Assembly (NCBI GenBank): GCA_030435675.1
Contig: CM059621.1
Location: 12,152,001 to 12,216,000 of the forward strand
Direction: 5' to 3'
Length of the DNA stretch: 64,000 bases
Source: Steinernema hermaphroditum
Taxonomy: Eukaryota; Nematoda; Chromadorea; Rhabditida; Steinernematidae
The position numbers and the translations under genes were made by a program. Positions 427 through 55,360 of this stretch are shown piece by piece; position 1 is the stretch's first letter, and the number at the start of each line of letters is the position of its first letter. The notes beneath the pieces were generated by a model. It made no database searches and was not told the DNA's origin. It was given only the letters and a program-made list of their open reading frames with translations.

Positions 427-535
427 CGAGACCGAGACCGAGTCTCGATGGCTTCGAGACCGAGATCGAGACTCGAAAAGTTTCGAGACCGAGAACCGAA
501 ACCGAGACTCGGCGAAATTTCGAGCGAGACCCATC
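427..535. repeat. Array of GAGACCGAGACTCG-type repeat, right copy
   Basis: About seven imperfect units alternating CGAGACCGAGA and GAGACTCG fill this stretch directly after the hAT remnant. The array ends with GAAATTTCGAGCGAGACCC, close to the first 20 bases of the window. Confidence 0.65.
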
Positions 536-540
536 ACTGG

Positions 541-2281
541 TCATAACCAATGCATAACCATTTACGGGCTGTCCATAAGTGAAAATGACTGTTCATGAGG
601 ATGGTCATGATCAGGCTGATCCTGATCCATATCTGAAGCCATGAAATATGGCATTAGTCCTGAACTTATCGTTATGGCCACGTTTTACAAAAGTACAGTA
701 CGGTCAATAATTATTTCGTTACACTTCACACTCGATTTCGCAAGAGTGCGAACATTTCTCCCAAAAAGTGCTTTTCATTAAGCTCACTTAACTCTAATGT
801 TCCGGCCAACCAATGACCAAACTACACATAAAATCCATTTCGCAAATCCACTTCGCAAACAACGCCGAAGTTTTCCCAGTGATATCATAAAAACTCTCGA
901 CTTCTAAGAGCTCTCCGTTTATAGCCTCCGAGAAGTTCTCCGTTTTTCCCAACGCATCCTCTTGCAAGGCCTAATAGAAGTCGTTCGGCTCACGTCGATC
1001 AGCTGACGATCCGCTCGTCATCGTGTTTTTTGTCTTGCGACGCTGTTTTGTCTTCTCGCGTTGGGAGGAAATTGCCTTCCATGCCGTTCATTCTAGCTCA
1101 TTTTCCATTAAATCGCATCATCTGATGTCCTTTGAGCAGTGCGCCTTCCCTAATCTCTCAATCGGTGCTCCAGTCGCCGACTCCATAATTACAGCCCTTT
1201 CCCCGAAATATCCCCAACTTCTACCCGCAATTTTCTTGTCTCGCCGTCTTCCATCAAAACGCAACGGTCCACACACACAGAAACGCCCTCGCCATGGGGC
1301 AGAAGTCGTCGGAAACGTTCGCCTAGTAGCGATAAGTGTTTCCAATTAATTCATCTCCCACGTCGCTGCATGACAACTCCGCATAATTCTACGTCGGGAC
1401 TACTTCCTCATTTCGGACGAGGTGTTCCGAAACGTTTCTATGAATGATGATGGGAGGCGAAAAAGTGATAATTAACATCGTATCGAAAAAACATCTTATT
1501 TGGGAGATTTATGTTGGAAACGAAAGACGCCGAGGGAAATCGCTTCATTTGGCCATGTAGTCGATTCCATTTCACAGGCTGGACTTGGATGCACTTGCAC
1601 TTTGCGTGAGACTTTTCTAGAACGGAGATTACTTGCCATGGAGCTTGAAGTTACCCATGCCCAAAGTGACTATCATGATGTCGATAGAATGGTGGTGGGT
1701 ATCCATTTTCTTTGATAAGTAAGCGCCGTTTTTGATGATATAAATGAGACGTTTCATATGGACGTCCTGTTTAATACTATGATATGTATACAAGATAATG
1801 GACCTTTAATCACCTTTGCAGTTAGGATGTGCACTTTATACACTTTATAGGCAGTTAGGCACTTTATAAGTATACGTCAGGTGTTTCTTGATTGAATAAC
1901 CACGTTTCCAAAGTTCAGTCGCACGGGATCACCTGCCCGTTAATAATTTCGCACATTGGGGTATCGGAGAAGGCGACAGTAGGCGAAACCGATTTATGGT
2001 TCGTTTAAAAGCGGCGCAGGAAATTGGTTCGTTTGAGTAGAGATATGGTTAGGGCTCTGCGTTCTTTGACCTGTTTTTGACTAGAGCGAAGTGGTTGTTT
2101 TGAGTGCCTTCTGTGACTTCTTATGTTTTGTGTTTTCTTACAAAGGAGGAACCTAATTTATCGAAAAGGACAGCCGCGTGCATTATTTGAACTTATGAAA
2201 TGAACCGATGCTTGGAAAGAAGTTTCTCGAATGAATTTTTTATCGTATCTGCCAAACTTGCAACGTTAAGAAATGGAACAG
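541..2281. other. Intergenic DNA, nothing recognised
   Basis: Only short open frames without convincing splice sites or family motifs are present. No RNA gene or clear repeat was found here. Confidence 0.5.
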
Positions 2282-2743
2282 TCAACAAAATTTTGCAGAT
2301 GTTACTTGGCACGCCTGATCACCTCTCTTGGATAACTTAACCGCTTCCTCCTTTGACGAAATGAATCTTCCCAAGTAAACATTGAATAATCTTCCTGCTT
2401 GATATCTAAAAAGGCATTTGTTCTGCATACGTTCTGCAAAATGCTTAGCGCAAAACAAGCAAATCTCACATAATTTGCCTATTCCTCCATTATCAAGTGC
2501 ATCGAGGTGGACAGTGTTGACACCCTCCAGGGCGATGAATGCCGGAAACTGAGCCTCCATAACTGATATGCACTTCCGTTTTGGCGAGATATTTACGAGT
2601 TTGTTTTGTGAGTTGTCGGATTTCGGAGATGGAACGCTTGCTGTGCTCAGAGTGCACTGGTGTGATTGATGCTTTTCTCTGCTTAATTCGCTTTCTTTTG
2701 GGAATTTCTCGCCTAAATGAAGTGCAACTTGGCGCCATCCCAA
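2282..2743 (-). CDS. Possible hypothetical protein or exon, unrecognised
   Basis: A 153-codon frame is open on the minus strand and ends in TGA at 2282. Its C-terminal half reads like protein: a segment beginning MEAQFPAFIALEGVN, a CEICLFC cysteine cluster, then a mixed charged helix-like stretch ending in KFC. There is no ATG at the left end of the frame; the first in-frame ATG is at residue ~62, so it may be an exon rather than a full gene. No family is recognised. Chance openness cannot be excluded. Confidence 0.3.
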   Translation of the reverse strand: MGWRQVALHLGEKFPKESELSREKHQSHQCTLSTASVPSPKSDNSQNKLVNISPKRKCISVMEAQFPAFIALEGVNTVHLDALDNGGIGKLCEICLFCAKHFAERMQNKCLFRYQAGRLFNVYLGRFISSKEEAVKLSKRGDQACQVTSAKFC

Positions 2744-5739
2744 AAAGAAACAACGGTGCAGTAATTGTCCTCTGGAAATTAGCCCTTCTGAAGGTCTCTT
2801 TTAGGGATGAGCTTGATGGAGTTGCACTGGTAAGTTAACGCGTCTAGGAATTACTGGTTTTGGTTGTGATTTTTACAGTCACATATTGATCAGTTGTGTA
2901 TTGTGGAAAAAATAAGCCTAAAAAATAAAGGAATTCATCTTTTTTAGTGCATAAAATTGATTACGGTTCGTTTGCGCAATGTCATCAATTTCGCGGTGCA
3001 TAAATTTCGGATTTTTCAAAGGCTTGGGATTTCTATTCTAGGTCGTTATAGATGGACCACAAGTGGTCTCTGTGGAAACTAGAAGATAGTACATTTTTGT
3101 TTTGTATTTTTTTGTGGTAAAATACTCGCAATCTTAAAGCTGAACAAACAAATAGGCAAATTCGGCCAAATTCTCTATTGGCCATTTTTTTCGATCCAAG
3201 CTATCAACGCTATCATCGCAAGGGCACTTTTTTCGAACCCACATATGCCTTTCAATTTTATGGTGCATAGATCGTAGATCCTTTTACGAGCCCTTCTTTG
3301 CTATCTTGACGTCTACGGCCACGTCACTGATAGCTTCCAGTTAGCATGGATTATGTTTTTTGATGAACTGCCCGTTCCTTATTCGTTATTAATACCGTAT
3401 TTTTGGTTAAAACGCAGAATTTGATGGCGTCGTATTCTTTACAAAGATGGGAAAGAAAACGAGAGGTCATTTAACATTGATACGGAAAGTAGTTTCTATG
3501 TTCAGTTTCTTTGGTCATGTCGCTTTTCTGGAATTAGGTCACCCCAGTTCGAACCCTTTGAAGCCTAATCGATAAGCGGCAGAGAAAGGCGAAACTAAGT
3601 CCAAGCAAACAACATAAACGATCTTCCGTTCATGCACAAATGGGGCAATAAAGTTTTGAAACGAAAAATGAGGCGCGTTGTTTGTTATCTCGGTGCTCTC
3701 GGTCTGCTGAGTGTGAGTGTTCGCGGTGATTTAGTGTGTTTTCCTCTGCGAACTCCGTCTCGTTTTTGTCCTCTCGCCGCGTGATCGACGACGCCGGATA
3801 ATCAAGGAGAACCCGCGATGATAATGTGCTCTTGACGAGCGGTGGTTAACGAGATTCGGCATGTTTGGAAGATTGATGACTTAAGCGATTATTGAATTCC
3901 TCCCCCTGACCGAGTCGTTTCCCGCATTAGCTCATTTCCCGGTCTCGAACGGATGCGAACACACGCGGCGACCTCGGAAAGCCCTCCTCGGCGCACTTCG
4001 CGTGTACTTTCAATTTCTGATATGAAAGTTGCTCTATTTGTTTGACGACGCAGGAAGCAATTAGGGGCGGCGAGATTTCGATAATCTCCGCTCTGACGAC
4101 GCCTTCCTGGCGACGGATTTGACGCGCAGATGTACAGAATCTCTGCAACACTTTTGCGGTCACCTCTTATGTTTTCGCCACTCCCGAGGGGCGATTCCAT
4201 TCGAGCAGTTCGCTTCATTCAGTTCCCTTTACTCGAGTGGTGCACGCCTAAACGCTCTAATGGAAATGTTTCACTTGGCTGGATTCTGTTGGTCGCGAGG
4301 ATTATGTGGGCCGTGGATTTTGCAAAAAGTGGGTGGGCCGCAGGCGGATATGAATCGCACGTCCGCGCCAATTAAGTCGCCCTTCCTTGTTTACTTTTTA
4401 ATTGCGCATTTAGGCGCGTGTGGCGCGCAATTATTTATAGTGACTCGGAGGAAGTGCATCATCCCGAGGTGTAAGTAGTGCCTCTGAAGTCCGAAGCCAT
4501 AATTTGCGGGTGGAACATCTGGTAGCCTAGGTGCTAGACGCTCGGTGACCTCACTCTGTAGTCATGGAAAATTCGCAGACACTTAAGGTTTCATTTCGTA
4601 AAGTACAGACGTTCGGGCGGTGAACCCACGTAATAATTTTTGTATATCTTGTCTGTGAGTTAATCCTGAGAAGGTTCACATGGTGCCGGCATTTAGAAAC
4701 TTTGTCTTAGAAAAGGAGGCTGTTTGAACTAACTGAGATTACCGATCTGACCACTTCCCTAGAAGAGTTTTTCGTGAAATTCGAAATATATCAAACCATA
4801 TTTTTGTCCATTACTTTATGTAGCATTTCACAAGCCACTCACAAATTGGATAGCTCATTTATTTAAAAATTTGTATCGGATCGGAAATGAACCGGAAATC
4901 ATTTCCAGTGTTTTTTATTTTTTTCTTATTTGATTTTTTATTTATTTTTTATTTTTGTTAGCACGTGTGTTATTACATGTGTTATTACTTTTTTATTTTT
5001 ATTCTACTATTTTCTGGCTCTTTCCCAACATTTCCTTTGAGAATCGAGCATCAAAAAGAGCACCTGAGTGGAATGTGGAGAGATAGAATTATAGGAATCT
5101 TGCCATAGGCATAGAAATTTGCCCAGTATTTTAAGTTTCTCAATCAGGTGGGTGGTTTTTCTCGATTTTCATTTCTTTTCGTCTAATATTTCTTCGAAAT
5201 TATTGCGGAACACCATCTGTTTTCCTTTCTATAACTACACCTGCTCAGATATTGGTTGCAGGCTGAATCAAGAAAATCGTCTCCTAGACTGGATGATGTG
5301 AATAATTTATATTTTGTGGAGAAAAAGCCTTCCACCTATGATGTTCTGCGCAATTCGTTGGCGTTTCGTTTTCCGAGAATCGCCCCTTGCACGACGAAAC
5401 GTACAAATCTGTTTTCGCTCGCAACTTTCGTGATGTGCCCTTCATCACTATGTGGAATTAGCGCTGTCTTAGCTCCGAATTAATTGGGTCCAACCCTTAC
5501 TCTCCCACTTGAGGTCCTCATTCCATGAATCACATCGCTTCCTGGCTACACGTTCACTCCGAGGCGGTCAGCCGCGGGGGTCGCCACACGATATCCTCCA
5601 ATTATCACAGATCCTCTTTTGCGTACTTTGCTCAAGCGAGGGGAGGCGCTTCCTCTGGACGCTTCCAGCGCATGCGCAGCCGTTCCTCTAGGGTCTTTTC
5701 TTTCGTCAGTTTGGCGCGCGGCTGTCGACGGCGGTTCTA
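2744..5739. other. Intergenic DNA with an AT-rich low-complexity tract
   Basis: No supportable gene is seen. About 4,900-5,010 is a T-rich tract made of short TTTTTATT units. The remainder holds only scattered short frames on both strands. Confidence 0.5.
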
Positions 5740-6909
5740 ATGATTCGCGACAAGATTGCCAAGATCTGGAGGTATGCCCGAGCCCTCAATGCGCCATTCC
5801 CATTTATATCCTCTCCCTCGAGGGCCATTCGCCCAGAGCGGTCAATGATTCGACGAATTGTTTCAGGTCGACAATGGGTAAACTGCTCTCGAAGAAGAAG
5901 CCAGATTGCGAGCTGACTCCCGAGGAGGTCGCCGCCATCAGGGAGGTGTGGATCAAGTGAGTTTCTGTGGATACGGTAGTCGCAAATGAGTGGGACATGA
6001 GAAAAGAACGAGGGAAATTCGCTGTTAATGAGGGAAAATTGAGCCTTCGGACATGAACTTTGCATAGGGTAATGTCAGACTTCCTCTTCTTTCTATGGGG
6101 GCGACGCTTATGGGCTTCGGAATTCTCCTGAATATGACTACCTCTTGTTTTCCCAATGGCCCCAGTCCATTCGGGCTTTCATCTATAGGATTTCAACTGA
6201 CTCATTCCATTTGATTGCATCATTTATCGCCAAATCTCTTATCTGTCTCCGTAATCTCACACAATGAAGGCAAATCTGCCGTTCAGGGCGAAAAACGACG
6301 ACGTCGGCAAAAAGATCCTCGCCGCTCTCATCGAACGGCGTCCGAAATTCGCCGAATATTTCGGAATCGCCAGCGAAACTATCAACGTCAAAGAGCTCTA
6401 CACGAATCGTCAGTTCCAGCTGCAGGCGCACCGTATCCAAGGGTTCCTGGACACGGCAGTTGGCTCTCTGGGCTACTGCCCCCTCACTTCGATCTATGAC
6501 ATGGCACATCGCATCGGACAGATACATTTCTATAGGTATTTGGCCAAAAACCTACCACGGCAAACTCGTGATTAGGGGTGTGAACTTCGGCGCCGACAAC
6601 TGGCTCGTCTTCAAGAAGGTCGCCGTCGACCAAGTGACTCTAGCGCGATCACAGTCCAAGTCGGCCAGCTCGGTCGACATGGATGACAGGCAGAGTCAAA
6701 GTGTGGAGGTAGGTCTTCTCCAGAGGGGCTTTCATTTGGTAACGTCGTTTCAGGACCCGGCTAACCCATTCACGTCGGAGAACTGTATCGCCAGGGTCGG
6801 CTGGAACAAGCTGATGGGAGTGATTGTACGAGAGATGAAGAGAGGATTCCTGGAGGAGGCGATGCGAAACTGCAAGGAGGAGGACGTGGAGAACCCTCTC
6901 TCTGCATGA
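5740..6909 (+). CDS. Globin-family protein
   Basis: Heme-binding globin fold, probably intracellular. Exons: 5740-5771 (optional), 5867-5956, 6287-6535, 6576-6708 and 6754-6909, with GT-AG junctions that keep frame; introns are 95, 330, 40 and 45 nt. Counting from ATG 5874 the protein has 206 residues; from ATG 5740 it has 219, starting MIRDKIAKIWRST. Globin marks are LTPEEVAAIREVW (helix A), VGKKIL and ERRPKFAEYFGI (helices B-C), HRIQGFLDTAVGSL (helix E with a candidate distal His) and RIGQIHFYRGVNF (candidate proximal His in IGQIH). The segment after the G-helix is Ser-rich and charged. The shorter form begins MGKLLSKKK, so Gly2 plus nearby lysines could allow N-myristoylation and membrane attachment, a feature reported for several nematode globins. 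The AATAAA at 6994-6999 fits as its poly(A) signal. Confidence 0.85.
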
Positions 6910-8973
6910 CCACAGGCGGCCTTCTGCTCTGAGGATGATCTCTTGCCATTTATACGCGTTTCTTTTTCACTATCAGTTTATTTGTCTCCACTCAATAAAA
7001 CATTTCTCGCACACATCGTGTACGATCACAAATCTTAATTGCAGTGCAGGTGAAGCCATTCACGTGAACTTTGAAGTTGTGAACTGATGGCCGACGAAAT
7101 CTGATCAGGAAGAACACCTGGACACTTATAATTGCAAACTCCTATTGCCTTCGAGGTCGTTTGTGCTTTGCGGAGGAGACTTAAGCCATAAAGCACAGAT
7201 GTATTACACGACGACAATCCCACGCAGCTTCTACGTAGACCCTCGGACTGCCTGCTCCTTCTAAATTAGTATCTTTAGTTCCACTTCCTCTTCGATAATC
7301 CCAAAACGGTTCTTCTAGAAGTGAGTCGACGCAAACGTCGACGCAATTTCCTCCAAAACTAATGAATTTATTCGCCTGTAAGCGATGTTCCCGGAATAAC
7401 GGCAGTGGGCGAATACCAGTAAACAACGCGCCCCCTTTGAGAACGTTGATGTTCTCGGAGAACGTAAACAGCGGACGTGACTCGTTTGGAAGACACCAAC
7501 GATTATGCACGAAACGTGGGTTTTAGGCAGACACATCAAAGAGCATCAGGCGGTAGACATTAATCTTCCAGGCGGCAATTTCCCAATTTGACGCTTTAGG
7601 ATGCCAGAGACACGCCGCGGTCCCGGTCGACTTCAAAGTCGTCGAATTTAGGCAAAGACAGAAAAAGCGGAGTTTGTAGTAGGAAATAAAAGTGGAAACG
7701 AGTGGAAAATACCTTACAATTATTTCGTTGTAAAAACTGAGAACTATTGGTTCCGCAGTTTGATGACAGAACCTCTCCAAAAACGGTAACAGATCTTGTC
7801 GAGGTGGTTTGGATGATAAAGTGATGGTGTTGTGGATGCGAAGATCAGGTTTCGTTTCTTAGAACACGATGGAGTAGACTTTAACCTGTGGGTGATACTG
7901 TTGGTGTGAGTAAAAACTAAGCAGATCACCAAATTGTGCTTTGCTTCTGACTTTTTTTATTTCTACCAGTAATCATAGTATAGATAGAATGAGACAAAGG
8001 GGTGTAATACTTCTATTGAGTGACACACAAACACGAATTAGTGTTTCTTGTTGATGCTCTTTTCTAGGACGAGGAATTCAGTCGTCGTTCCTGAGAGCAC
8101 TTCACTTTGCAGCTGTCAGCACTGGAGCACTCTTCTCGCTGAAATTAGATCCTCTATCAGCAGTTACTTTGCCACTCATAACTGCTAGAGGAATTTGTTG
8201 GTGCATGAAAGAAACTTAAAAAATTTCGTTCATGTGTCATTCTCATGTCACACCCAGTGCGGTCTAATAAGCGATCACATCTGTACAGAAGCAATTGGGA
8301 TGCAATCGTGATTTCGACAGAGATAATCGGTGAAAAGGTGACAACACCCCATAAAGCAATGAAGGGAAGTTATATACGACAAAAATGTACGGCATGGACA
8401 GCAAAAGAGTTTAGCAATGTCGTAAAATTAACCAATAACAATTTTACACTATTTATGCATCATGCTGTTTACTGAGCTTAAATTTATCCTTCCTGGTTAC
8501 GTCTTTCAGCGAATGTCGATGTCATTTCCATATAAGGACATTGTATTGCGGGGATTAAGGAAATGAAAATTCGCAATCAGCGCAAGCAAAGCTTTGTGGG
8601 CTGAATCGCACAAGGAACTGGAAGACACCAACGGATCTCCTTACAGGGAAGTGGAAAAGACGAGCGGAAGGAACTTCTTGCTAATGTTGTGAAGTCATCT
8701 GAAGTGATCTTCGTCAAATATAAAAACGGAATGAATCCATGTATACGGTATCGGCAAGATATTGACGCACATTCTCGAAAAAAACGTGTTTTATACGACC
8801 CACATTGATCTTATGGACTATGACGAATCGAAGCATCGAAGACCAGTGTATCTGGCTAAGTTTATTAAAGTCATGGGCTTGACACATGTTATTAACTGCA
8901 CTCATAGAACGCTGGCAATCCATTTGAACACGTTTTGTACACTGAACTCGTATCAATATTTAGCACCTAATGA
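6910..8973. other. Intergenic DNA between convergent genes
   Basis: Holds the globin 3' end with AATAAA at 6994-6999 and the 3' side of the complement-like gene. Other open frames are short and lack splice support. Nothing else recognised. Confidence 0.5.
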
Positions 8974-11900
8974 TCAGACGAAGTCGCACTTATTTCCCCA
9001 CAGCAGTAGCGTCGACGCGTTGCTACAAGTCATTTGGCCCCTCTCGAAGTAGTCCGAGTTGCCGAGAACGTAGTGCCGTCTAAAACCAGTTGGCCTCTTT
9101 GGGCGCTGTGCAAGAAAGATACCTTTGCTGTGAATCGACGACGGATCCATGCTTGTTTCCCAACAGAAGGAGCCACTGTCCCTTCGCAAAATAATTGAGG
9201 ACGTTGTTGCTGTCGTCCTGGCACTGGTAGTTGCATGCCCTGAGCCAGAGGGTGACGTTTTTGGCACCGCTATTGTATGAGGTAGGAATGACTATGTAGT
9301 TACTGCTCGTAGTAAGGCTCGTGTTGTGCCAGTAGGGATCGTCGGTCACTTTCAGATTGCATCCTGGAAAGAGTAACGTGAAAGGTTTGGGACCCTTTTT
9401 AAGGCACGACAAAGTGGAGACTCACCGATGGTATCGTCGGAACGGAGAAGCTGTTCAACCTTCGTGTTAGGTAGATTATTACAATCTGAACACTTCACAT
9501 TGCAGTTGGCCTCCGCACAGGAACATTCTCCACCCTCAAAGCAGATCTTGTCAATGGCATCGTTGATGGCCGGCATCTGGCGCTTTCTTCGCTTTCTCAA
9601 ATCGTTCACATCAGGATGAGTGATGAACAGTTTGCCTACGTCACCTAAACGACTTTTCATCAAGAATCTCAAGCGTCGATTACCCCTGTCAGCGCTTTTC
9701 GCCATGATGTGCACAGATGCAAGATTGTTGGGTTCGCTGATGGAGCTCCTTAGTCCGATTTGGTAACAGGTTGGCACGTCCGGGCTTAGCTAAAGTGGTC
9801 TTCTAGTTAATCTTCTGATAAGTGCAAAAAGTACGTTTGTGATGATGACGTGCGCTTCAGATTCACTGAATTCTACTTTGCCGACTATTTCTGCTCCGTT
9901 TCTTTTCGACTCCTAAACACATTACTAGGATTATCTTCCGATGAAGACCATCTACCGGCATGAGATCCAGTTTATCAGGTTCTGATTTGAAGCCTGTGTA
10001 GAACGCGTGATCGATTTGAAGAGTTTTTAACATCCTTGATTTTACTCTAAATTCCACGTCGTTCATTCGAAGGAGATCATGAGTGTGAACCCACTGGATG
10101 CACACTTCCTGTCTCAGGTAGTCGTGCTCGATCTTCTCTTGTTCGCACGTTATCTTGACAGGATAGAACTCGTCCGAAGTGTGACGTTTCGATCGTTGTC
10201 GCTTGGTGGTCACCAGCTGCACTCCGAGCTTCACTTTTCCTTCGCCGTTGGAGATGATGCTGATTCGGCTGACATTCGTGGGCAGCTGAAAGATTTCTGC
10301 GTCTGAATGAGACAGGACTACTGTGGACCATACAGGGATGAGAAGAGGGTTGTCATCCAAAACGAGTTCCTCCTCGAGAACCGTGTCATTCAACATGTAG
10401 CGGATGTTTAACTGCGGATTTCCGAAGAAAGCCGCACTACTGTGTTTCTTACGGTACTCGTAGAGGGACCTGGAGGCAAAGAACGTGTCCAAAACGCCGT
10501 AGTAGGCCTCGTCGCTTCTCTTCTGCTCGTAGATCCAATCGGCGAGGTGATCAAGATTGGTATTTCCCCCGGTTTTGCCGAGAATTCCTTTCACTGTGTA
10601 GGTAAGCAATCCAAGGGAGTTCAGCAGAACCTCGTTTCTCTGTAATCACACGGATGGGTCATTCGAACTGGCAGCGTATTTACCTTTTCATCATGATACT
10701 TTATGAACTGCTTCACATCGTTCGGCAAATTCTCTTCACATTTTCCACTCTGACAGGTGGAGTTGAAATCCCAGAAGGGTAGCTGGTTTCCTAAAACGAT
10801 CAGATTACAGTTGTAAGAAATGGACTTCTACAACTACTGCGAATGCTTTTATTGAGCTGTAGCCGAGCTGTATCGTGGACTCCTTCCAGGCCCATAAGGG
10901 CAAGACCGGCAACGACTCGAGGGTCGTATCTGTTGTGCTCCATGAAGAACAGCTCCGTCTGCAGCTCCATCAGACTGTGTTCCAGGTTAGTGTCGGTTTT
11001 AAAGTTTTCGGGGCAGTCGTGGAAGACCTGGTAGATAAGCGCTTTTAAGAAGGCGGCTCTTTGAGCGGCTGTCGGAAGGTCATGGAAGAGGTCGTCGACA
11101 TCTCTGTCCTTTCGGAGAACTCCCTTCACGGCGTCGAAGAGAAGCCGAAGGGGTCCTTTCACGGTAGAAGGTTCCATTCCGCGTTGGCAGAGCAGAATCG
11201 TAGAGACGGCAGTCAGGGGGATGGATACATCGTTGTTAGGCGCTCCGTACTCCGCGAATCCACATGGTTCACCAGAGCCTGTGCAGTTCGAGAACGTGCT
11301 TATTTCGGAGACCACTGAAAAGGCAAAAAGCAGTGAGCAGTCTCCTAATTGAAATACATACAAGATCCAATTTCTCCCTCGAGGATTTCGATTTCCTCTA
11401 GATCCGCAATTGACAATTTTTGGTTCAAACGGATAGCCTTCTGTTTGTAAACCTTCACACTGAGTTCTTTCAGGACGTCCGAGAGGAAGAGATTCTTCAT
11501 AGGCAATACTCCGAGCTTTTGCTTTTGGTCACGGAACGCTTTGGGAACGTTGAATGGAGCTGTGGAAAGGAACTCTAAAGTGTATGCTTCAAAAGCTATC
11601 CAAAAGAGACGTTATTCTACTTGAAACTTCGAGGGCCAAGTCCTGGACCACCGATTCCAACAGATTTAGATGAATATTCGTGGTGACTTGGTTTCCGTTC
11701 CTTATCTGATCGTAGTCAATTCTCTCGATTGATCGAACTGATGATTGCTCTTTCAGTGGCTTGTCGGGACTGATGATGATCCCCTTGTAGAACAGTTCTG
11801 TATCGGCTCTTTTCTTCAATTTCTCCCTATTATGAATAAGCAACAGCCTCTACCTACCTCGACATTGACGACGATCTTCACCTGGTCCTCCATTTTCCCC

Positions 11901-14900
11901 TCCATACAGTGGTTGACCTGGACGTTGCTCTGTCTTCTTAGGCTGAACACCAGTTCGACTGGTCCGGGCTTTGTAAAGAAAATAGGAGTTTTCCTCACTC
12001 CCGAACGTGTGTTTCTTGTGAGACGCACCTGATCGTACACCTCCTTGCCGAGCTCTCCAAAATGGCCTTGGTCAATGCAGGCTTTGTAAGATAGTCCGCT
12101 GATGCAGACGGACAAATCGAGCTGAAAGTCGGCCTGTGCTCTTTGAATTACGAGATTAGCTTACGTAGTCATCGTGAAACTCCTTCTCTGTGGTGACGAT
12201 GATCTCGGTAGCAATCGTTTCGTTCACGTAGATGTGCTTGGGCAGTTCAACGATCATGTAGAAGTCTTTCTTGCTAATAACAGCCGTTGGGCTAGGCCGG
12301 CACACACCGAAGTGTCCAGGTCCCCAGAAGGTCGACGCGATGGACCAGTTGGCGATTGAATCGGGGGCTGTCAGCTGAACACGTCCTTTTCCAGATGTGC
12401 TAAACATTGCGCTATGGGCCTTTTTACTGAACATCGGACCAACTCGAGGGGAACATCGTTGAAGAGCCAAACTTCCTTGAAATCTTGCCGGACCTTGACT
12501 TGCTCGGCCGAGTGTCCCCCGATGACCGGATCATCGTTTGTCTCCATTGCCTGCGGAACATCATCAACAGGTAGTGTTCGGCTACGATGAGGATTCTCGG
12601 CAGCCCTGTCGGAAGCCCTGTCAGGCGAAGCGGCTACTGTAATCTACTGCATTGGCTTTGAAATCGGAAAGAGTCCTCACAATAACCTATGTTAAAGATC
12701 GACGATACACGCACATTCAGGTCAGGACTAAATTGAGGGGAAACAGGACTGAGATTGGCGTCGGGGTGTGCTGCAAACGGCACACGGACAAGAGCTCTGT
12801 TAGGGCATGCTGGCAATCACTTACTTGCACCTTGCCTCAAGAAGACAGGATTACGAATCTCGCTGGGAACGTATTGGCAAGCCTTTCGCAATTGCTGCTG
12901 ACAGAAGTTAGAGATCCCGGAGGAGGAACGGCCGAAAAAGGGACACGTGAGTGTGGTGGAGAGGTAGCTTCGGTATGAGTGACCAGCTTCTTTACATACG
13001 CCACCTAAGTGACAACGTTTGTGGTAGGAGAGAGGAAGGACCCCTACTTAGAATGTCCTTGAAATTTGCGTCGTCAAAGAAGTTGGCCATTCGAAGGCTG
13101 GTTGTTTTATTGCCGCCGAAAGAGTCTATTTCCCAGTATGTGGACGGAGCGTACATGAGCGATCGCTAAAACTCCCAGAATTTAGAAATTTCGTAGGCTA
13201 TCTACCTGTAGTAGGCCAAACATCCTTGAGTCTAAGACATGAAGAAGGGCGAGACCTCTTTCGGGTCCGTTGATGTTGATGCTGAGCTTGTCACTTGGAC
13301 TGATCTCACTGGCGTTGGGTGTAGCTGTGAACTGAAGGAGACGTCTTATACTCGATTTAAAGAGACCACCTACCGGACAGTTATTCTCCACGAAGAACAT
13401 CCACATGTCTGTGTAGGGTTTCCCGTCCTTGTAGGCGGCCGTCTTTTGGAAGGAGTACACGTAGAGGACACACTGGGAGACCATCTTTTCGGTGATCTCG
13501 AAGCGAATCCGCTGATGTTCCACTTGACCAGAGGCGGCAATCTCGCGCTTATTACAAACAACCTAAGGAGAATCGTCAAGGATCTTGTAGACCCTAAGGT
13601 ACCATGTACTCAGAAGCAACTCCCAACACAGTCGCTCTGAACTCCTCTCCAACTCGGTAACTCGTTTTTGTGGGTTCTTCTGGACTGATGAGGTTGAAGT
13701 TGGTAGATTCTGCAGAGGACATATTGGCCACGATGAGAGTGACATTCCGCGAAAACATTGCATTCGATATTTCTCTTTGAGCCTAAAGAAATCGTCAGAT
13801 TTCCCTGAGCTGAAGACCTACAAAGATGACGATGGCCGAACAGTGATAGAAGTCGTTCCTTGCCGCGCTAATTCCGATGATCTCTCCGATCTTTGTTTGA
13901 TACGTGGACTGCTTTGTGTAACCTTCTCGGGTCGACAAACAAGTGACGTTCATGTGGACGACGTCCGGCAAATCTTCGAAAGGCGATCCAGTGGGCTTGA
14001 CGAAGACAAAGAAGCTCATGGATCGATCGGAGAAGGCCGGTCTCAGCGGGACAAGGTCGAAGCCGGCGACTCGGAGGTCGAGCTGGTAGCGGGTCTCGGC
14101 CGTCGCCGAAGTCGAGGTGTCCCGAACCTTGGCTATGATTGTGGCAGATTGTGTATGCTTGTCGGGGAAGCACTGAGACACTTTAACTTGACTTGACACG
14201 AATCCATTCATCATCTGAAGTTGGGTGTTGCGGTTCATTCCACTGATAATCTCACAGTGATACCGTAAGAGAGGTCAAGTAGTGGGTGTCAGTGCTGTTT
14301 TCGCTCTTGCACTCTATCCTAACAGTGCCGTTCAGGAGAGTTCCATGGGAATATCGCGCGGAAACAGTGAACAACGGTGTGTCAGAGTCCCTGGTCACTT
14401 TGGCGTCCAGCAGGACCTGGATGAGCGGCAAGGCTAAATTGATCGTTCCGCTATTGCGTCACATGTGCTTGGTGCCTACCGTAATCTTGCACTTCAAAGG
14501 TGGCGACATAGCTCATTGCGGAATTCTCCACGGCGCGTCCCCCGTAGTCGTTTGGAATTGCGACGATCCTCCACTCGCCATACTGTAAGTTCTCTGGGAG
14601 CGTGAATTCCAGATGGATGTATCTGTCTTCGGCGGTCTCATTCTTCGTGATCAGTTTAAAGTTGTTGGGGTTCCACAAACTAAAGGAGACCTCTTCTTTG
14701 TAAAGTTCGCCCTCTTCCGTGATAGGAAGTGCGCGGACTTTTACTAAAAGTGCAACATGAGTCATGTGTTGTCACAGCTGGGAACCGACCCTTTTCTCCC
14801 TTCTTGTAGAAGACCTTGTCAGTTTGAACTTCGATGGTCCGTATATTGGGGTTTCCGTGGACATTTGCCACGTAGGAAGAGTGCTTATCGACCTTCACCG

Positions 14901-16020
14901 TCACGGAGTAAAAGTCGGAATAAGTGTCCTTCTTGTCCAACTGGAACTTGACCACATTTGGACGGTCTAAACAGAGTGTTGCACGACGACAACAATACAG
15001 AAAACAAACTCGTTTTAGAGGTTAGAATACTCCGTCGGTACACAATTCTGTTCTTTTCATTCTGGCCGGAAGTTTTGATCTCCACGTCTAACTGCACGTT
15101 GATCGTTCGGGATGTTTGAAGTGGGATGACGACGATCTCGTTTTCGGTTCCCCATCGGAAGCTCGGAGGCAGCAAAACGATCGGCTCTCTAAAACGGCGT
15201 TTAAGAAGGAAGTGATTCCGATTTCGGTTGTCTATCTTTTCTAAAGGCAACATTGCTCAATGAATAAGCAAATAGAAAATTTCTAAACTAACAAGGGAAC
15301 AATTTGAAGGGTCTGACTTAGATCGGGCTGAAAATTGGAACACAGGTAGGCATTATTCGACGTTTACCTCACAAGCTCGTAGGTTTATATGAACATTTCA
15401 AACCGTACATACCGTTCAAATGATTATGGTTAACATTGCCGGCATAGCAAACTGGGGGTGTGTTGGCTGCCGTTCAAGCCCCTTTTGTTTTTTCCCATTA
15501 AGCACCCTTTGATGATTAATAAAAGTCGGCTCCGGACATACTTTTCGTTTTTTTGTACGTGTCTACATGGCCACATATGCGCAAGGTTAACTTTCGGAAA
15601 AATTGGAATTTTTTGCTCTTAATAGAAAGGTCCTTGCAACATTTATCACAAAGAGCGAACAACCCGAACGGCGTATTTTTTGAACTTTATCGAAGTCTAC
15701 ATAATCCATTTTATCGATATTTTATCAATGTTATCGGTCTTTATGCAAGTAATTCCACCAAAATGATTACGGCGACAGACCTTAGAGGCGACAGAACCGT
15801 GACTCTCATGAAGAGATCAGTTTCTATTTCTGGAAGTTTCTTATCAAATTGGTGTGTTAAGTTGAACCCTTACTTGACATTTTTTACACTTGGAAAATAT
15901 TACAAAGTTCGTAATCTGTTTTTCCCTTATTTCCGAAGATAACGGTACTCACAGTTCTGAGCGGACACTCTGGAGGCTGAAGAACGAGAAGAAGGCGAAA
16001 TAAAGCAACAATCTGGACAT
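8974..16020 (-). CDS. Complement C3/C4/C5-like thioester-superfamily protein, thioester lost
   Basis: Twenty-four exons (high to low): 16020-15953, 15188-15031, 14966-14790, 14743-14480, 14433-14264, 14214-13822, 13782-13603, 13562-13374, 13331-13206, 13165-13048, 13004-12825, 12770-12687, 12636-12444, 12399-12165, 12121-11858, 11813-11621, 11574-11362, 11314-10838, 10790-10684, 10639-9956, 9912-9835, 9789-9426, 9363-9123, 9079-8974; 5,262 nt, 1,753 residues (human C3 is 1,663). Order seen: signal peptide; macroglobulin domains (TDKVFYKKGEKVKVRALP is the MG2 mark); a four-Cys anaphylatoxin-like segment ~618-657; RQDFKEVWLF and APDSIANWSI (MG7 entry); CUB-like part; helical TED ending in DTFFASRSLYEYRKK; receptor-binding MG8; C345C/NTR with CSCAEANC. 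At the thioester position stands GSGEP (~1081-1085) instead of GCGEQ, so no thioester can form. Likely secreted. The C345C end argues against CD109, A2M or insect TEPs. Least certain are the exon 12/13 junction and the start of exon 16. Confidence 0.87.
15189..15952 (-). other. Long first intron of the complement-like gene
   Basis: This 764-nt intron separates the signal-peptide exon from the first macroglobulin exon. All other introns of the gene are about 39-62 nt, so it is the obvious place for regulatory sequence. No specific element was recognised. Confidence 0.6.
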
Positions 16021-16623
16021 TTCTCGACGAGCTGATCACATTGGAACAACAATGGCAACTGAAACAACGATCGCAAATCGATTCGCGTTTCGAACGGGTG
16101 CGACAAGACAGCCGCTCGTTAATCGTCGTTTAGCCGACGGCGCTCTTCGCCGCCTTCGACACCGCTCGGAGAAACCGATCTTATCGAGCGAGGTGGCGCC
16201 CTGTTCGCGCACCGAGAGGACAAAAGATGGGCATGTACGCGTCGAAAATGGGGCGGTCGAGACGCTCAGATCGTGCGGTCAAGAACGACGATGTTGTGGC
16301 TAGGTGCACGCCTGTTGCATAAACAATTGCGCGAGCGCTGGATGCACATGGAAATGGGTGCTGGTGGACGGCGGAAACGAACTAGTTTCGCGCAGTGCAG
16401 TGAGTGTTTATGTTGATCGGAGCCTTGGAGTTCAGCGAACGCATCATCTTTTTTTTCGTTTTCCGATGGCGTCTTTAAAATAGTGAAAGATTAAAGAGAG
16501 ATTATCAGTCAATATTTCTGAAAAATGTGGGGTCTCCACTGTTGAGCGATCTCTCACTTCTTAGCATCCATTATCGCGGAATTCGAACAATGTCGTGATT
16601 CAGCGAAAGATGTGCGACCAGAC

Positions 16624-35866: not shown

Positions 35867-38800
35867 ATGCACGCGATGAACTCGACGACGTATAGTACGG
35901 TAATCGAGGAGACAACGTATGTGGAGGAGACGCCGCCGGCGCATCTCCTCAACGACTACATCGAGATGATCTTCCTGGGACTGGTGGTGATCGTCGGAAT
36001 GCCGCTGAACGTGTTCGTGCTTAAGAAGTTGCTAGAGGAGAAGAAAAGAACTCCAAAGGATTGCGTGAAGGTACTTGTGCCCGCAAAAAACTCCTCGAAC
36101 GGCCACTTCAGGGGTGCTTCATTCTGCTCAAGATCCACTTGAACATCAGCGACATTCTCATCCTTCTCACGCAGGCTCTTGGCAAGTTCACGTGGATTGC
36201 CACCTACCAGTGGATCTTCGGGGACCTCCTATGTCGTTTCTTCAACTTCTCCAACATGTTCTCCCTGTATCTCAGCTCCAACATCGTCATCTGCATCGCA
36301 TTTGACCGTCTCCGAAATGTCATCTTCGCTAATAAGCTGAGAAGAGGAAAGCATACGGTAAGATACAATGTCAAAGACGCAGCTGAAGGTTCACTAGGTC
36401 ACAACGATGCGTATCGTCATCTCCATCGCCTGGGCCCTCGCAGCCATGTGGAGTCTTCCTCAGCTCTACGTGTGGAATACGATCGACGTGTACCCGAACT
36501 ATCCAGGCGGCTGGGTCCAGTGTACCGATATGTGGACGATCGATCGCTTCTTGCACGGAATTGATGTGGCCAAGCACAGGAAGAACTTACTGTCGGAGAC
36601 GACTCAAAATGTATACAACATTTCACACTTGGTAGGAGACATTCCAAATGAATGATGTGAAGGTTGTCTTCTAGGTGCTTGTGTTCTTCGGCCCTGTCGC
36701 CCTCCTCGCTCTCAGCTACGCCATCATTCTGGGACGACTGATGCACTACTCCTACAAAATGCCTCAAAAGCTCCAGGTATGCGACGTTTTGAGTCTAGTG
36801 TTATCGTCCTGTTCAGCCTAATCTGACCCATACAAGCATCGCCGTGCCGTCGACGGTCATCAGAGACGCCACGAGCGTTCAATGGAGCAGTGAAGCGCCT
36901 CTCAGTTCACGCAGAGGTCAGTTTTTAGCTTGAATTTGCACGAAGAAAGCGCTGATTCCTTTTTTCAACGTTCGGAGACCGATGTTCGCGATTCTGATCT
37001 GGAAAATATGACGAAAAACATCCCTTAAATTGGCTAAATTTTCGTTTTTTCTGAATAGTTTTTTTCCTAACACTCCATGAATTGCGTCATGGCCAAGTCT
37101 GAGTCAGAATCCACTCTGTGGAAAATCGCATAATTTCTACGTAATATAATTCTTTCCATCGACATGTTTCTAATCTCATTTAGTCGAAATAATGCCAAAG
37201 ATTGAGCAACTACGTTTATTGTCGCCTTTTAAGATGATTTCTTCGTTTTTTGTGTTAGCTTGTTCAGAGTTCTTCCTGCATTTTGCACTCAAAACGTTCT
37301 AATCAAGCCAGTCCCCATCTATGGCGGCTAAAGGAGAAATATAGTCTTGTGTTATCAAGTAAATGCGTCAGTCATTGGCAGGTGTCCTTGATTCGATTGG
37401 CCGAAAAATACCAGCAGCTGATTCCCCGTGACTACGATGAAAATATGAATATATATTAGCCCTAATGTGGTCGAGGCATGATGTTCTCAAATATAGGACC
37501 AGATTCAAGCACACTTATTTTCTGTAGTGCACAGCTGATCATGGATCATCCATCATCTGACGCTGTCGCCTATTAACCGCCCCAAATAACTCAATAATCC
37601 AAATACAATTTCGTCAGAAAACATAAATATGCACTCAATTAAACTGAGTGCTCGCTAAAGATCGGTGGACGGACCCGATTCTGGGAAAATCTTGTATTTT
37701 TACGCACTCTAACTTTTACGGTATTATTTTGAAATGTCTCACGTCCTTTTTTTCGTTTGACATTGATGAACTACGAAAAATAATAATAGTGATATTTTAG
37801 GGCTGATATTTAAATGTTCTCAAAAACAAAATCAGATCAAACATCGGCCCTTTTTTTCTCTGCCCTCACAAAACTTTGTGTTAGTCCTCTCATTTGTTGT
37901 TTATGGAAATGTTTTTAATAACTCTCGAGGTCTCGAGGAATCGAAATGGGGTAAACAGGGAAGCGTAGTTTCCCTTTCATAATTAAAATGGATCTCGCGC
38001 GAAAGCGCTTTTGCCACGTATGGTCCCCTCTATGTCAAATGATCACGTTTGATTCTTCATGTATGACCTTTGAGCCCCTTTTTCGGATTCTACATTTCGC
38101 TAAATGAGCCGAAAACAAGGCCCGAATTCCCATCAGCGACCCTTCAAGCAGCGTCAGCACATGACTAAATACGGAAAATGAGTATTTTCCGCATTTCTTG
38201 AAAGCTGAATTGACGTCGGGCGGTGCGATTGAATGCGTTTTGATCGCAATATATAATTAAAAAGCGGCAAAAGCCAGGATAACGACTGAAGTCGTTTTTT
38301 TTTCTAGAAGTGTGTGATAAGCCGAATCCTCACAAGAGACACTACGACGCGAAGATCAGCGTGGACTCCGCTTCGGCCACTTCTACCGTAACCTGCGACC
38401 CACCATCGGGCAGCAGCAACGAGATTGTAGCGCACGCCCGGCTTCTGCCTCGCCAGATCCAAGTTCGGGTAAGTGTTCCTAGGGGTAAAAACATCTGAAC
38501 ACCGTACTTCAGCTCACCAACTGCTTCTGTCCCCGTCGCGAGTCGATTGTACAGATCGACTTCGACACGCAGACGACTCCACTCGCCTCGGGACGACCTC
38601 TGCTGCGGAAAGAATCCGATCAGAACGCCAAGACTCCACGCATCTCGATCACAAGTGAGTGCGGAGAGAAGTTTAAGAAGTTGCGAAAAGGTTAGATCTT
38701 GCCGAAATTAGCTTCTGTTTTTCTTCCGGTCACGTGTTTTCGCTTAGTCACCGCACAAACATTACAATCATTGCGAAGATCCTGTTTTTGGACGCCTAGT

Positions 38801-41800
38801 TAGACGGCATGGTCTTTCAGTTTGTGACGCCGGTCTTACATCAACAGTTCCTAAGTGACTTCCGGTGCAGCGATATATAACTCTCCAAAACGTGCCTTCC
38901 AAACCGTTCCAGGAATGTGTACTTTGGCCGGAAAACACAATTTCCGCTGAACTTTAGCCGATCGTAGTCACATAATTAACTCCCAGGGGGGCCTACTCAA
39001 CGGCCGCTCCTTCGGAAGTTTTGCATTACGGTTTTTGTGTCCAGGACTCATAAAATTCATAAAACTGCGTCTCCTTGTGTTCTCCACTAATTACCCGCTC
39101 CAGCTCCTCCATATAGTCACGTCTCGTGGCAAAGAAGAGCATCGCCACCATTAAGCGAACCGAAATTACGTTTCTCTTTGCGTGCCCTCGCGCTCTCTCA
39201 TTACACTTAATATGTGGAGGGCGCCAAAGAACGACGCCTCCAACAAACAATTATTATTTCTGCGCGACTCTCTCCCCCACTTCCTTCGCCGCGACGATTG
39301 TTTTCGCGGTTCCACAATGCCCATGAAAAATTCAAGAACGCCTGTTTTGTAATTAAGAGCGGGAATAGGCGATGATATGGACTTGGGCTTAAGGCTACCG
39401 TAACAACTTAATTGTTTTCGTGTTCTCGTTTACTCATCACTCCGGTATGTGAGAGAAATTAGAGGAAAGGAAGATCCCCCGCTCTGCAGATAAACAAGGC
39501 TGAGAGAAAACTCTTCATTTTAAACGATCCTCTCATGCATTAAATTTGCATGGTGAGATGTCTCCGTAGATTAGACCATCGCTGTCCTGTCCCATTGAGG
39601 CTAATGTGCTCAATGTGAAAGAACCCTTTAATTCAGCCAATATCGCCCTCACACATCGAAATTTAATCCGCAGTAGCAGGATGTTTTTCTGTGACTGCCT
39701 CGCCACTTCCTCCTTTCTGATTGTAAAGGGCCACCCTGGAACACGGCCACCCTAAAAACAACGCCTCTGTTTTTGGATCTTCGGCCCTCCAACGTTCATG
39801 AACCTGTTTATCAAAACGGCTCATCACTTATCCCCTCCCGAGATGCGTGTCTTGCCTCTCCGATGGCGCCGAAGAAGAATTTGATTGCGTTTTTTGTTCT
39901 ACAATCCGAATCCCACGAGTGCGCCTCTGCGACAAAAACACCGCAAACCGCTCCAACCTTGAATTCGCTAATCAAATTTCTTGTGACGTTTCCGGAAGAT
40001 TCTTTAGACTCTCCAATCTTCTCCAAAAACATCGGATTGGATGATGTTGGAAACAGGAAAACTCGGTGCTTTCGGATTATCTCGCCACAATCACGTCACT
40101 CCCACTACATAGACCCTGATGTATAGCGTCTAGACTTAAGGCTACCTTTCGCGCTTTTACCTCAAACTACTAATCAGTGCATCTGCAGGTCATTAACGAA
40201 AATATTGTGTAGTCGTGAACAATGCGTACAAAACTGTTTGTAAGTTCACAGCCACTCACAGGGACTTGTAGCCGGGTTAATTACTTCGCATTTGTAGCAG
40301 GAAAGGAGTGACAGCTACCGTATGCCCACGTCGCTAAGATGCGTGAATTGCATGTCCAGCCCACTCAGTTTTTGCGTTTCGCTGATGTTCGAGCAAAAGA
40401 GTATCTCGCCGAATTAGCGATTAGCCCTCTCTTTTTGTATCCATCCCAAAGACGAGGAAGTGAACGAGTCCTCCCTTAGCCATCGCCTCTTCTTTGCTAC
40501 TGTAAATGGGGATACATTTAATGAAGCAGTAGTTCATCTAATCCCCTCAGGTGACAAAGAGCATTGCTTAGTGCCCATGCCCTTGGCCTCCCAATCGGCG
40601 ACAGTTTCAATTTCCTTTGACACACTCTAACCTCCACTTCCTCGAGACTCTCCGTAATGCTTCGAAGATCGAACGCCCTTCCGGTCGTTATTTCAAGTTG
40701 TGCGAAAAAAACGGAAATGGAGGTTAAAGACATTTGTTCTTCGCCTTCCTCGAGAGCGTCTACACCGGCGACGCTCTAGAACATGTCCGCGCCTATTCCG
40801 GTGGATTTCGAACTATTGCGTCGATCTCCTGCGGGAGCGGACGTCATCTTGGAAGACAAAAAAATATTTGCGCAGATTGCTTCTGCTTTTCTTCCATTTG
40901 CCCAAAAAGTCCAAAAGTGCACTTGGAAACCTCGACAAGGATGTTTTCCGGAATTCGTTTCACAAACGTGACTGCTTGATCTTTTCAGCTTAGAATGTGA
41001 GATTTTGTTTTGAAAAGTGCCCGCGAAGACCTTGGCCACATATATATCATATTCATGAGGGCACCGGAGGCCAGACATAACAAAACTCCTACTTGCGGGG
41101 TGTCTTCCACCCGAGAACAAAACCACCTCCATGTCCTAACAATAAGTGTGCCAATCTGTCCGCATAAGTGCACATCACAGAACTCCATCCTTTTCCATCC
41201 AGATTAGGCCCAGTTAGCCCTGTGTTACGTCAAAAACGCTTCGCAGGATGCACTTTGCCCGTTCCCCCCAATGCACTCCAATAATTACTCATTAAGATGC
41301 GGTTTCCGGCTCAACTCTTTCGAACCTCGGAGCCTGCGTCGCAGAACAACAGATTGTTTACCTCCGAATGCTGTTTTGCTTTCGGCAGACAGGTGTTGTG
41401 CGTGGCCCAAGCCAAAACAACTCTTTTTCGGGAATTTGCGTGGTAAACTTTGGCCAAAAATTAGCGCCGCCGCCAGCGTACCGCCGCCAAAGTGGCTTAG
41501 TTGGGATGAAAGAAGAAGAATAAAAGCGAACTAGATGCAAAAAGTGGGCAAGGAACATTCGACGATCACGATTCTTTCGGCTCTCAGAACACAGAGTCTG
41601 CTAATGCCTATTAGTCGGAAAGTAATCGCGTGACTTGAAAGAGATTGTAGCGCAGGAGGCTACAAATCTTGCTCCAAATTGAATTTTCTTATTTCTGGAA
41701 CTCCTATCGGCTCGTCGAGATGTTTTTGTCTTTCTGCACTGCTTCGACACAAAACAAAAGAAACGCTCTCTGACATGTGCCTCCGTTTCAGGTGCTTCCA

Positions 41801-42030
41801 CGCGTCTACCCGTTTGGCGCCGCCAGCTCCGTAGCAAGGTGTTCCGGACTACGATCCTCGTCGTACTCACCCACATCCTCTTCTGGTTCCCCTACAACTT
41901 CTTCGCATTGATGAAATATTTCGACCCGGAACGCTACTCATACTTCAGTGAGCACGTCAACGTCCTCAAAGACTTGCAGTTCCTCATCACTCTCGTCAAT
42001 CCGTTCCTCTACGGTCTCGGCGGTCAGTAG
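35867..42030 (+). CDS. GnRH/AKH-receptor-like peptide GPCR, copy A
   Basis: Exons 35867-36070, 36112-36357, 36398-36631, 36675-36776, 36817-36916, 38308-38468, 38513-38654 and 41792-42030 join in frame to 475 residues. Plasma-membrane class A receptor. Seen: short N-terminus; TM1 IFLGLVVIVGMPLNVFVLKK; TM2 with LNISDILILL; TM3 ending IAFDRLR (DRY-type); TM4 followed by SLPQLYVWNT and a WVQC that supplies the ECL2 cysteine; TM5; a third cytoplasmic loop of about 150 residues; LPVWRRQLRS before TM6; TM6 HILFWFPYN; TM7 NPFLYG. Translation stops six residues after that Tyr, so there is no cytoplasmic tail. Family assignment (nematode GnRH-receptor-related) rests on overall pattern; a vasopressin-like receptor is the main alternative. 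Introns 5 and 7 are long (1.4 and 3.1 kb), the others 40-44 nt. A paralogue lies 1.1 kb downstream. Confidence 0.85.
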
Positions 42031-43116
42031 TGCCTCGCCGCTACCGTAGTCGCCAACATCATCCTCTTCTCTCAGTAAGTCAATTGCTCCATTTTTTGCA
42101 ATTTCTCCATTTCCACGTTCCCTCATTTGCATAATTGTCGTTCTCATAAACAGAATGCACTGGGGTGTAAACAAAGGTCCCCACTCCGTAATCCTTCCTC
42201 TCCTTCCGCGGCGAGACCACGCCCCTCGCCTCTCAAGGCGAAGCAAAGGAGGAACGCCAGTCGTGCTCGCGACACCTCGCCAAGTTTAATCCAAAGAACG
42301 TGGCCATCTTCGGCTCCCCTTTGGTTGCCCCGGCGCTGAGTCACGCGACATTTAACCAAAATCGGAAGCAAGCCGCCGCTTAGAGATGTTTAGCGATGCT
42401 CGTTATCCCCCCGTGGTATCATTCCCCACCGTATACCTCAACGACCTGTTTTGCTGAATAACCGAGAATTCAATTGGGCATTTAGCGGTGGTTCTAGTGC
42501 AAATTCTCAGTAACCGGATCCTGTATGCGTGATCGATGTGAATTTAATTAAAAATGCGTCATTTGAGGCAAGAAGTACCCTGTGACACACAAGGGAGCAG
42601 GTGTAAGATTGAGTCTCCATAGGTTGCACTTGAAGTTCCCTATAATTCCATGAGCAAAAACTATGTTAGCCAATGTACCACCCACAGATGCAACATCACC
42701 GCCTTGTCCAAGCCCTCGTTCTCCCCGAAAACGTTTTAGTGGCCGGGGAGTGGCGCCAAATCTCAAAAACACGCTTATTGCATCAACTCATGCAGTTAAT
42801 TGGCGCGTTCCGGCGGTTGTTATGGGCCGTGAAAAGCGGACTTTTATTATGGCCATATCAAAACACTCACCACTTTCACCTGTCCTCTTTGATTGGGTCC
42901 GAATTGTTCGTTTTCCACGGCGCCGCCAACGGTGACAGCGCCGTGTTGCTAACGTCAAAACAAAGTGCCCGTGGACTCTGCCTCCGGTCTATCTTTCGTA
43001 TTTTCCCCCCAAAGTTCCCACGTTGTCACGCGACCGCCCATGCCCCGCCTCGGGATATTTCTAGTTTACGCATTCACCTTGCTGGCTTCAGGTAACCCCC
43101 TCTCTGTCTTCTCGAC
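42031..43116. other. Spacer between the two peptide GPCR genes
   Basis: About 1.1 kb with no recognised gene. It is expected to hold the 3' UTR of copy A and the promoter of copy B; a TTCAG acceptor-like site at 43,087-43,091 lies 25 nt before the start codon of copy B. Confidence 0.5.
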
Positions 43117-51550: not shown

Positions 51551-51610
51551 ATCTGAAATGTACAGTGTGTAGTGGGTAGTCGGATCGTGTACGAGTCGCG
51601 TACTGAATGG

Positions 51611-52145: not shown

Positions 52146-52209
52146 AACGTTTTACTTTAGGAGTGGCCAGTTGAGTGGCCAAATGGACCAAATGGAAAAA
52201 GTTGTGGAC

Positions 52210-55340: not shown

Positions 55341-55360
55341 TGCGCATGGGCTAACATACA

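Follow-up and report, generated by a model that had tools for sequence, protein, structure and literature searches.

An apparently thioester-less complement-like gene family in Steinernema hermaphroditum, best read as part of the C3/C4/C5 branch

Has any nematode kept a gene of the C3/C4/C5 branch of complement? Excerpts of a 2022 survey of C3-like genes in 56 non-vertebrate species, no nematode among them, name Nematoda among the phyla whose representative species lost C3-like (PMC8960428), and in the titles, abstract starts and passages of the literature that we searched no nematode C3, C4 or C5 is described as such, except for one Steinernema carpocapsae protein name. The question is raised by a gene at 8974..16020 on the minus strand of a 64,000-nucleotide stretch of the Steinernema hermaphroditum genome (contig CM059621.1; the whole stretch is called the window below). 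A first-pass annotation, made from the sequence alone, had described a full-length C3/C4/C5-like gene here and had supposed either that C3-like genes persist in some nematodes or that the nematode gene is commonly annotated too simply. Both suppositions gain from the analysis: a linker motif, a profile ranking and a tree point to a gene of the C3/C4/C5 side persisting in some nematodes, and the deposited model of this gene removes its most diagnostic piece, a run of 48 bases. Our preferred reading, to which we give a probability of roughly 0.7, is that the gene encodes a secreted C3/C4/C5-branch member of the macroglobulin-complement (AMCOM) family that was kept and duplicated in Steinernema, lost its thioester and works more like C5 than like C3.

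Placement beside C3, C4 and C5

The window gene is a member of the AMCOM family. In our own model of the protein, MG2 (36.4 bits), A2M_BRD (29.6) and A2M (34.9) all score above their Pfam cut-offs and stand in order, and the deposited protein, P0001, scores similarly. Over the genome the A2M profile exceeded its cut-off in five places: the window gene, three loci on contig C3 (L016, L017 and L018; the proteins of the first and last are P0002 and P0003) and one GCGEQ gene on contig C2 (L019). The alignment of L016, L017 and L018 with the window gene begins in the N-terminal region and extends to the last domain.

The most specific evidence for the branch is a cysteine-rich linker before the last domain. 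In the window it reads CFEGGECSCAEANC (9502..9543, minus strand, as are all features of this gene) and is aligned with LCRDELCRCAEENC of C3, as found by profile comparison, pattern search and alignment. The window gene and its paralogues have KICFEGGECSCAEANC or KICFDGGVCACAEASC before the last domain (NICFDGG in L018); the human C3 counterpart is KLCRDELCRCAEENC, with a cysteine frame common to C4 and C5. All four S. hermaphroditum members carry a CxC[AV]ExxC linker between MG8 and the C-terminal domain. Among 246,748 six-frame residues, taken from the window and eight loci, the pattern C.{3,6}C.C.E..C turns up four times, with a single occurrence in each S. hermaphroditum family member; it is also present in 119 of 120 proteins from a C3 search, but in neither the one A2M row nor the one CD109 row. 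Against a C3/C4/C5 profile the C-terminal stretch scores 28.2, a value reached by none of 100 column shuffles (mean 13.1, maximum 20.5), and the two C-terminal windows take the top two places among 16 along the protein.

The deposited model obscures this region. Through an intron at 9533-9486 it drops 16 residues, including CSCAEANC and most of the linker. With these 48 bases (9486..9533) kept, the exon is 219 bases long, the same as in L016, whose deposited protein retains them. In the 18 codons that hold the 48 bases, comparison of the window with the paralogues gives 5-6 synonymous and 6 non-synonymous codons (dN 0.21, dS 1.36-2.33). The 48 bases thus read as coding, although they may be an optional intron. 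CSCAEANC and two further cysteine-bearing exons, noted in the first pass, are indeed present in the window gene according to the gene finder and the alignment with the paralogues. An annotation that skips the 48 bases can mask the family assignment.

The C-terminal domain that follows (8974..9501: the rest of exon 9644-9426 and exons 9363-9123 and 9079-8974) is probably a C345C/NTR domain, as judged from its position, the linker and the order of its cysteines and not from a domain profile. Of the C345C end proposed earlier, the linker motif and the position stand, but no match to PF01759 was found. The genome's single PF01759 match, on contig C5 at 9.08 Mb, was rejected as a second C345C, its predicted protein being netrin-like by eye (laminin-type N terminus, EGF-like repeats, NTR).

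Profile ranking and phylogeny point in the same direction as the linker. A four-row profile of the family, compared with solved structures, matches C3 best (E 7.6e-13), followed by A2ML1 (2.2e-10) and CD109 (4e-8). Three stretches align with C3 in collinear order: MG2-MG3, one that begins halfway along the anaphylatoxin-like exon and extends through MG6, and one from the final part of TED into MG8; the latter two align weakly. In an 11-row tree the worm family and C3 are separated from A2M, CD109 and the worm's own TEP with support of 98/97, and the alternatives that place the family with CD109/TEP or with A2M have p-AU values of 0.016 and 0.0035. A 10-row tree with the anaphylatoxin and C-terminal parts removed again gives 98/97 (p-AU 0.04 and 0.0115, respectively), and support in this tree is 100/99 without CD109, 87/87 without A2M and 94/91 without TEP. 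The phylogeny favours grouping the family with C3, but on few rows; because long branches meet (the program issued a warning) and all C3 rows are mammalian, we take the tree as support, not proof, and count its sampling among the points to be weighed below. On the linker, the profile ranking and the tree together, the family is best read as belonging to the C3/C4/C5 branch.

These data also bear on two other origins. The gene could encode a worm protein of CD109/TEP type in which the thioester was lost and an unrelated cysteine-rich tail acquired, the likeness to C345C and anaphylatoxin being convergent. An earlier single-sequence model (1,519 amino acids) did have CD109 as its best match in the PDB, and neither the C345C core nor the anaphylatoxin-like module has profile support. 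We nevertheless consider this origin improbable: the linker matches C3/C4/C5 at the same place in the chain, a tree that places the family next to CD109/TEP fits less well (p-AU 0.04), and the same genome has a separate GCGEQ-bearing TEP/CD109-like gene with a GPI-like tail (L019, contig C2). The narrower proposal that the window gene is simply a TEP-1 of the Caenorhabditis elegans type is ruled out, as a GCGEQ gene of the TEP-1 kind lies elsewhere in the genome.

Still less probable, and in our view very much so, is a protease inhibitor of the A2M kind, in which a bait is cut and the protease is trapped in a closing ring. The A2M_BRD and A2M domains would fit such an inhibitor, as would the 159 trypsin-type matches that an exon-wise search found in the genome. 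However, the protein has no thioester, a cysteine-rich module lies about where A2M has its bait, and grouping with A2M is disfavoured (p-AU 0.0115). A2M and A2ML1 share MG2, A2M_BRD and A2M domains with the worm family; unlike it, the A2M row that we checked has neither the anaphylatoxin cysteine pattern nor the C345C linker.

Gene model and domain order

The gene has 27 exons in our preferred reading and 28 in the deposited record QR680_017984 (P0001), a 1,702-residue "hypothetical protein" of S. hermaphroditum that was recovered by a protein search and maps exactly to the window with 28 exons and 27 introns, from 16020 to 8977. When the stretch 8960-16100 was given, with neither end forced, to a simple splice-aware gene finder whose training set was the window and five further loci, it returned the start codon at 16020 and the stop ending at 8974. 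Over the whole window the runs gave untidier results, from 16020 to 5706 in one case and from 19877 to 5706 in another, so the gene ends rest on the restricted run and the deposited protein. The one long gene read in the first pass is confirmed, but its size of about 1,753 residues with 23 introns is replaced by 1,702 residues with 27 introns or, when the 48-base 'intron' 9533-9486 is read as exon, 1,718 residues with 26. The least certain splicing is that of 12825-12560.

Exon 1 (15953..16020), given by both the gene finder and the P0001 mapping, holds the start codon and a stretch that by eye resembles a signal peptide, MSRLLLYFAFFSFFSLQSVRS. The MG2 (PF01835) and MG3 region follows at 14264..14966 (exons 14966-14790, 14743-14480 and 14433-14264; MG2 cut-off 32.8 bits), where there is also a profile match to C3. 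The A2M_BRD region (PF07703; cut-off 22.7 bits) is at 13206..13782 (exons 13782-13603, 13562-13374 and 13331-13206), and the second half of MG6 with the A2M region (PF00207; cut-off 21 bits) is at 12165..12636 (exons 12636-12444 and 12399-12165). Alignment places MG7 at 11858..12121, with a cysteine (YKAC) that is presumably near the place of Cys873 of C3, a disulfide partner. The TED region, at 10334..11314 (exons 11314-10835, 10790-10684 and 10639-10334), passes the TED_complement cut-off only in the paralogues P0002 and P0003. NCBIfam gave chance matches only. Of domains in the series read in the first pass, Pfam supports macroglobulin-type ones (MG2, A2M_BRD and A2M) in the window gene's product, and TED_complement only in the paralogues P0002 and P0003; the receptor-binding domain, anaphylatoxin module and C345C end have no Pfam match in the proteins scanned.

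The first-pass annotation had also named findings that would speak against it. One, a contig of non-nematode origin, is ruled out by 265 exact SL1 sequences in the genome (177 forward and 88 reverse, versus 0 in a reversed-pattern control), by the chromosome size of the contig (18.2 Mb) and by relatives in S. glaseri. Another, the lack of any C345C or MG7-MG8 profile match, came true in its C345C half as far as Pfam PF01759 is concerned.

The rest of the window holds several other gene models. A globin-like gene lies just downstream of the complement-like gene (about 1638-8535, plus strand; PF00042 at 23 bits, cut-off 22), and two adjoining models of rhodopsin-type seven-transmembrane (7TM) receptors (PF00001) lie at 35867-44504 on the plus strand. 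On the minus strand, the stretch 50276-63670 contains a row of several small secreted saposin-like proteins, two of which were scanned, one passing SapB_2 and the other having no Pfam match; a 7TM receptor of the Srab class is found in the same stretch.

Anaphylatoxin-like exon, thioester and cleavage sites

The exon at 12825..13004, CKEAGHSYRSYLSTTLTCPFFGRSSSGISNFCQQQLRKAC, has four cysteines in the arrangement C-x16-C-x13-C-x7-C. Human C3a has the frame C-C-x12-C-x12-C-x6-C-C, and the frame of rat C3 is like it. Because the spacing in the window is similar, the exon fits a module that keeps four of the six cysteines, and a weak HMMER alignment to C3a places its last three cysteines in the C3a frame. 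A close variant of the exon occurs in the S. glaseri protein P0006, and the paralogues have a variant with further cysteines, which in P0002 are differently placed. The occurrence of this anaphylatoxin-like exon in the window gene, P0002 and P0006 also speaks for the branch. The anaphylatoxin-like module first read here hence stands as four cysteines at similar spacing, but not as a six-cysteine module in the C3a frame or as an ANATO profile match. By eye, arginines follow the module in the window gene and in S. glaseri, and none does so in P0002 before the next domain, which would make release of an anaphylatoxin-like fragment by a trypsin-like protease likelier in the window type.

The thioester motif GCGEQ is absent from all four proteins checked that reach TED (the window protein, P0002, P0003 and P0005, the last from S. 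glaseri). These four keep both cysteines of a conserved NC-x6-CG pair in the TED region (NCTGSGEPCG, 11259..11288). The alignments do not place the pair at the thioester position, and it is left as a candidate for a thioester replacement.

A furin-type site, RSKR↓H, lies upstream of MG8 (10184..10195) and also occurs in S. glaseri P0005, roughly where, we assume, C4 has its alpha-gamma site. The alpha-gamma RXXR is thus present as RSKR in the window and S. glaseri (position judged by eye), whereas in P0002 and P0003 its place is taken by a weaker HVKR. A second furin-type site, RKRRKR↓Q, stands directly before the linker (9580..9597), with RKKR↓S in P0002 and P0003. As a separate observation, P0002 and P0003 have an additional furin-type site, RLKR, between MG7 and TED, which the window gene does not have, and by eye P0002 has RVLR↓P at the alpha-beta place.

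With GCGEQ and a furin-type alpha-beta site absent and four of six anaphylatoxin cysteines present, the window gene does not qualify as a C3 in the working sense. The earlier assignment is therefore supported in part: 'C3/C4/C5-like' holds, and 'C3' does not.

Vertebrate C5 is a closer comparison. It shares the C345C branch, the lack of a GCGEQ thioester (PMC8960428, in the part available to us) and an anaphylatoxin module before MG6/MG7. In contrast to C5, no furin-type alpha-beta site was found in the worm gene, which has four rather than six anaphylatoxin cysteines; its furin-type sites stand instead upstream of MG8 and ahead of the C345C linker, and sequence identity is very low. The C3-like proteins of protostomes and cnidarians are of the branch with ANATO and C345C in which we place the worm family, and excerpts of the same survey report many losses of the thioester after duplication among them, as well as a gastropod type I C3-like protein without alpha-beta site, ANATO or thioester (PMC8960428). 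Because that protein too is without ANATO, the failure of the worm exon to match ANATO does not exclude the branch.

Besides the tree sampling, several results weigh against our placement and against a complement role. No Pfam match for NTR/C345C, ANATO or A2M_recep was found in the proteins scanned, including the spliced protein for which this check had been proposed. Profile comparison of the anaphylatoxin-like exon with ANATO gives a probability of 1.2%, with 4 of 100 shuffles as high, which is not significant, and MAFFT puts the anaphylatoxin cysteines off the C3 columns, just as it does not place the YKAC cysteine of MG7 and the C3 cysteine in one column. The hhalign match of the C terminus has a probability of only 24.5%, over 32 columns that are the linker, and without the linker the C-terminal core is equalled by 28 of 60 shuffles. 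The linker itself is known from S. hermaphroditum only, as the S. glaseri proteins end before it or lack it. No alpha-beta site was found before the anaphylatoxin-like module of the window protein, whether as R-x-[KR]-R or, by eye, as RXXR. Finally, profile searches of the genome gave at least 159 trypsin, 48 VWA and 32 CCP matches, these being lower bounds from exon-wise searches, but no gene of factor B type (CCP, VWA, serine protease) was seen, in that by eye no listed CCP match lies less than 200 kb from a listed VWA match; the exon-wise search could miss one.

Paralogues, relatives and a possible mode of action

The paralogues L016 and L017 have no stop in 1,578 aligned codons and a dN/dS of about 0.32, and L016 and L018 have none in 1,566 (dN/dS about 0.27), showing purifying selection among them. 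In S. glaseri, P0005 is 66% identical to P0001 across 733 columns, and P0006, which covers the N-terminal half, is 58% identical to the window protein (alignment A11). Since three paralogues are alike along the chain, have no stops and a low dN/dS, and there are S. glaseri relatives, the gene family is more than a chance resemblance. A fifth member was sought at 13.89 Mb of contig C1 (17.8 bits, below the cut-off) and rejected, since tblastn at E 0.1 showed nothing there that matches the family.

Outside these two species, the matches listed by two protein searches were just two weak ones: the first search gave an insect CD109 (E 0.54), the second a rodent A2M (E 0.0059). As the second search missed P0002 and P0003 even though pieces of each were in the query, apparent absence from other nematodes is weak evidence. 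A proteome study of S. carpocapsae (PMC10090647) names L596_009048 as 'Alpha-2-macroglobulin family protein' and L596_009045 as 'a-Macroglobulin complement component'; these two may be either of TEP-1 type or relatives of the window family.

Three further observations concern the same genome. As deposited, QR680_011857 (P0003, locus L018) is a complement-like paralogue fused at both ends to stretches that by eye resemble a 7TM receptor, with the anaphylatoxin-like exon skipped; the fusion is likely an annotation error. In L019 (G000:C2:890500-900499; about 509-4320, plus strand), the A2M exon is preceded by a tandem series of nine short, mutually homologous stretches, each built around a motif of RxxFPETW type; they resemble alternative exons, a kind of arrangement known from Drosophila Tep2. 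On contig C3, matches to trypsin-type proteases cluster densely at 9.27-9.53 Mb and 13.03-13.11 Mb.

C. elegans TEP-1, of CD109 type, shares a macroglobulin core with the window gene, and both are nematode genes. According to the available part of PMC12633222, it is one of the GCGEQ proteins, a GPI anchor is found in one of its splice forms, and it has no anaphylatoxin or netrin domains. Its likely counterpart in S. hermaphroditum is the separate gene in L019, not the window gene.

How might a C3/C4/C5-branch protein without a thioester work? The chain would enter the secretory pathway, where furin would make two cuts, one upstream of MG8 and one immediately ahead of the C-terminal domain; disulfides, one of them from MG7 to the CxC linker, would hold the cut chain together. 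A trypsin-like protease could then cut the exposed stretch after the anaphylatoxin-like module, on which the ring would change shape and expose surfaces that non-covalent partners could bind, the C345C domain serving as a docking arm. Covalent tagging of targets would not be possible. The pairing of the chains, the protease trigger, the shape change and the partners are what we infer for such a protein, as is its use, which may be in defence of the worm or in handling the insect host and the symbionts.

A protein of the same ancestry could instead have no immune role and belong to the worm's matrix, with a structural or developmental function. It would accord with this that no convertase gene was seen in the exon-wise searches, and, in the part of PMC12633222 available, C. 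elegans TEP-1 is described as acting at glia and cilia. Duplication to four copies would better suit a defence or host-facing role, and we regard the matrix role as rather unlikely, if the least unlikely of the alternatives.

Returning to our preferred reading, its evolutionary side seems to us somewhat the better bet: Steinernema would have kept the C3/C4/C5 branch, dropped the thioester, moved the furin cuts to where they would release the C345C arm or loosen it, and raised the number of gene copies, arriving at a complement-like system without covalent tagging in which an anaphylatoxin-like fragment and the C345C arm act by binding alone. An insect-parasitic nematode that has four such genes and is reported to be open to forward and reverse genetics would allow a direct test of what complement-like proteins do when they lack a thioester and perhaps factor B as well.

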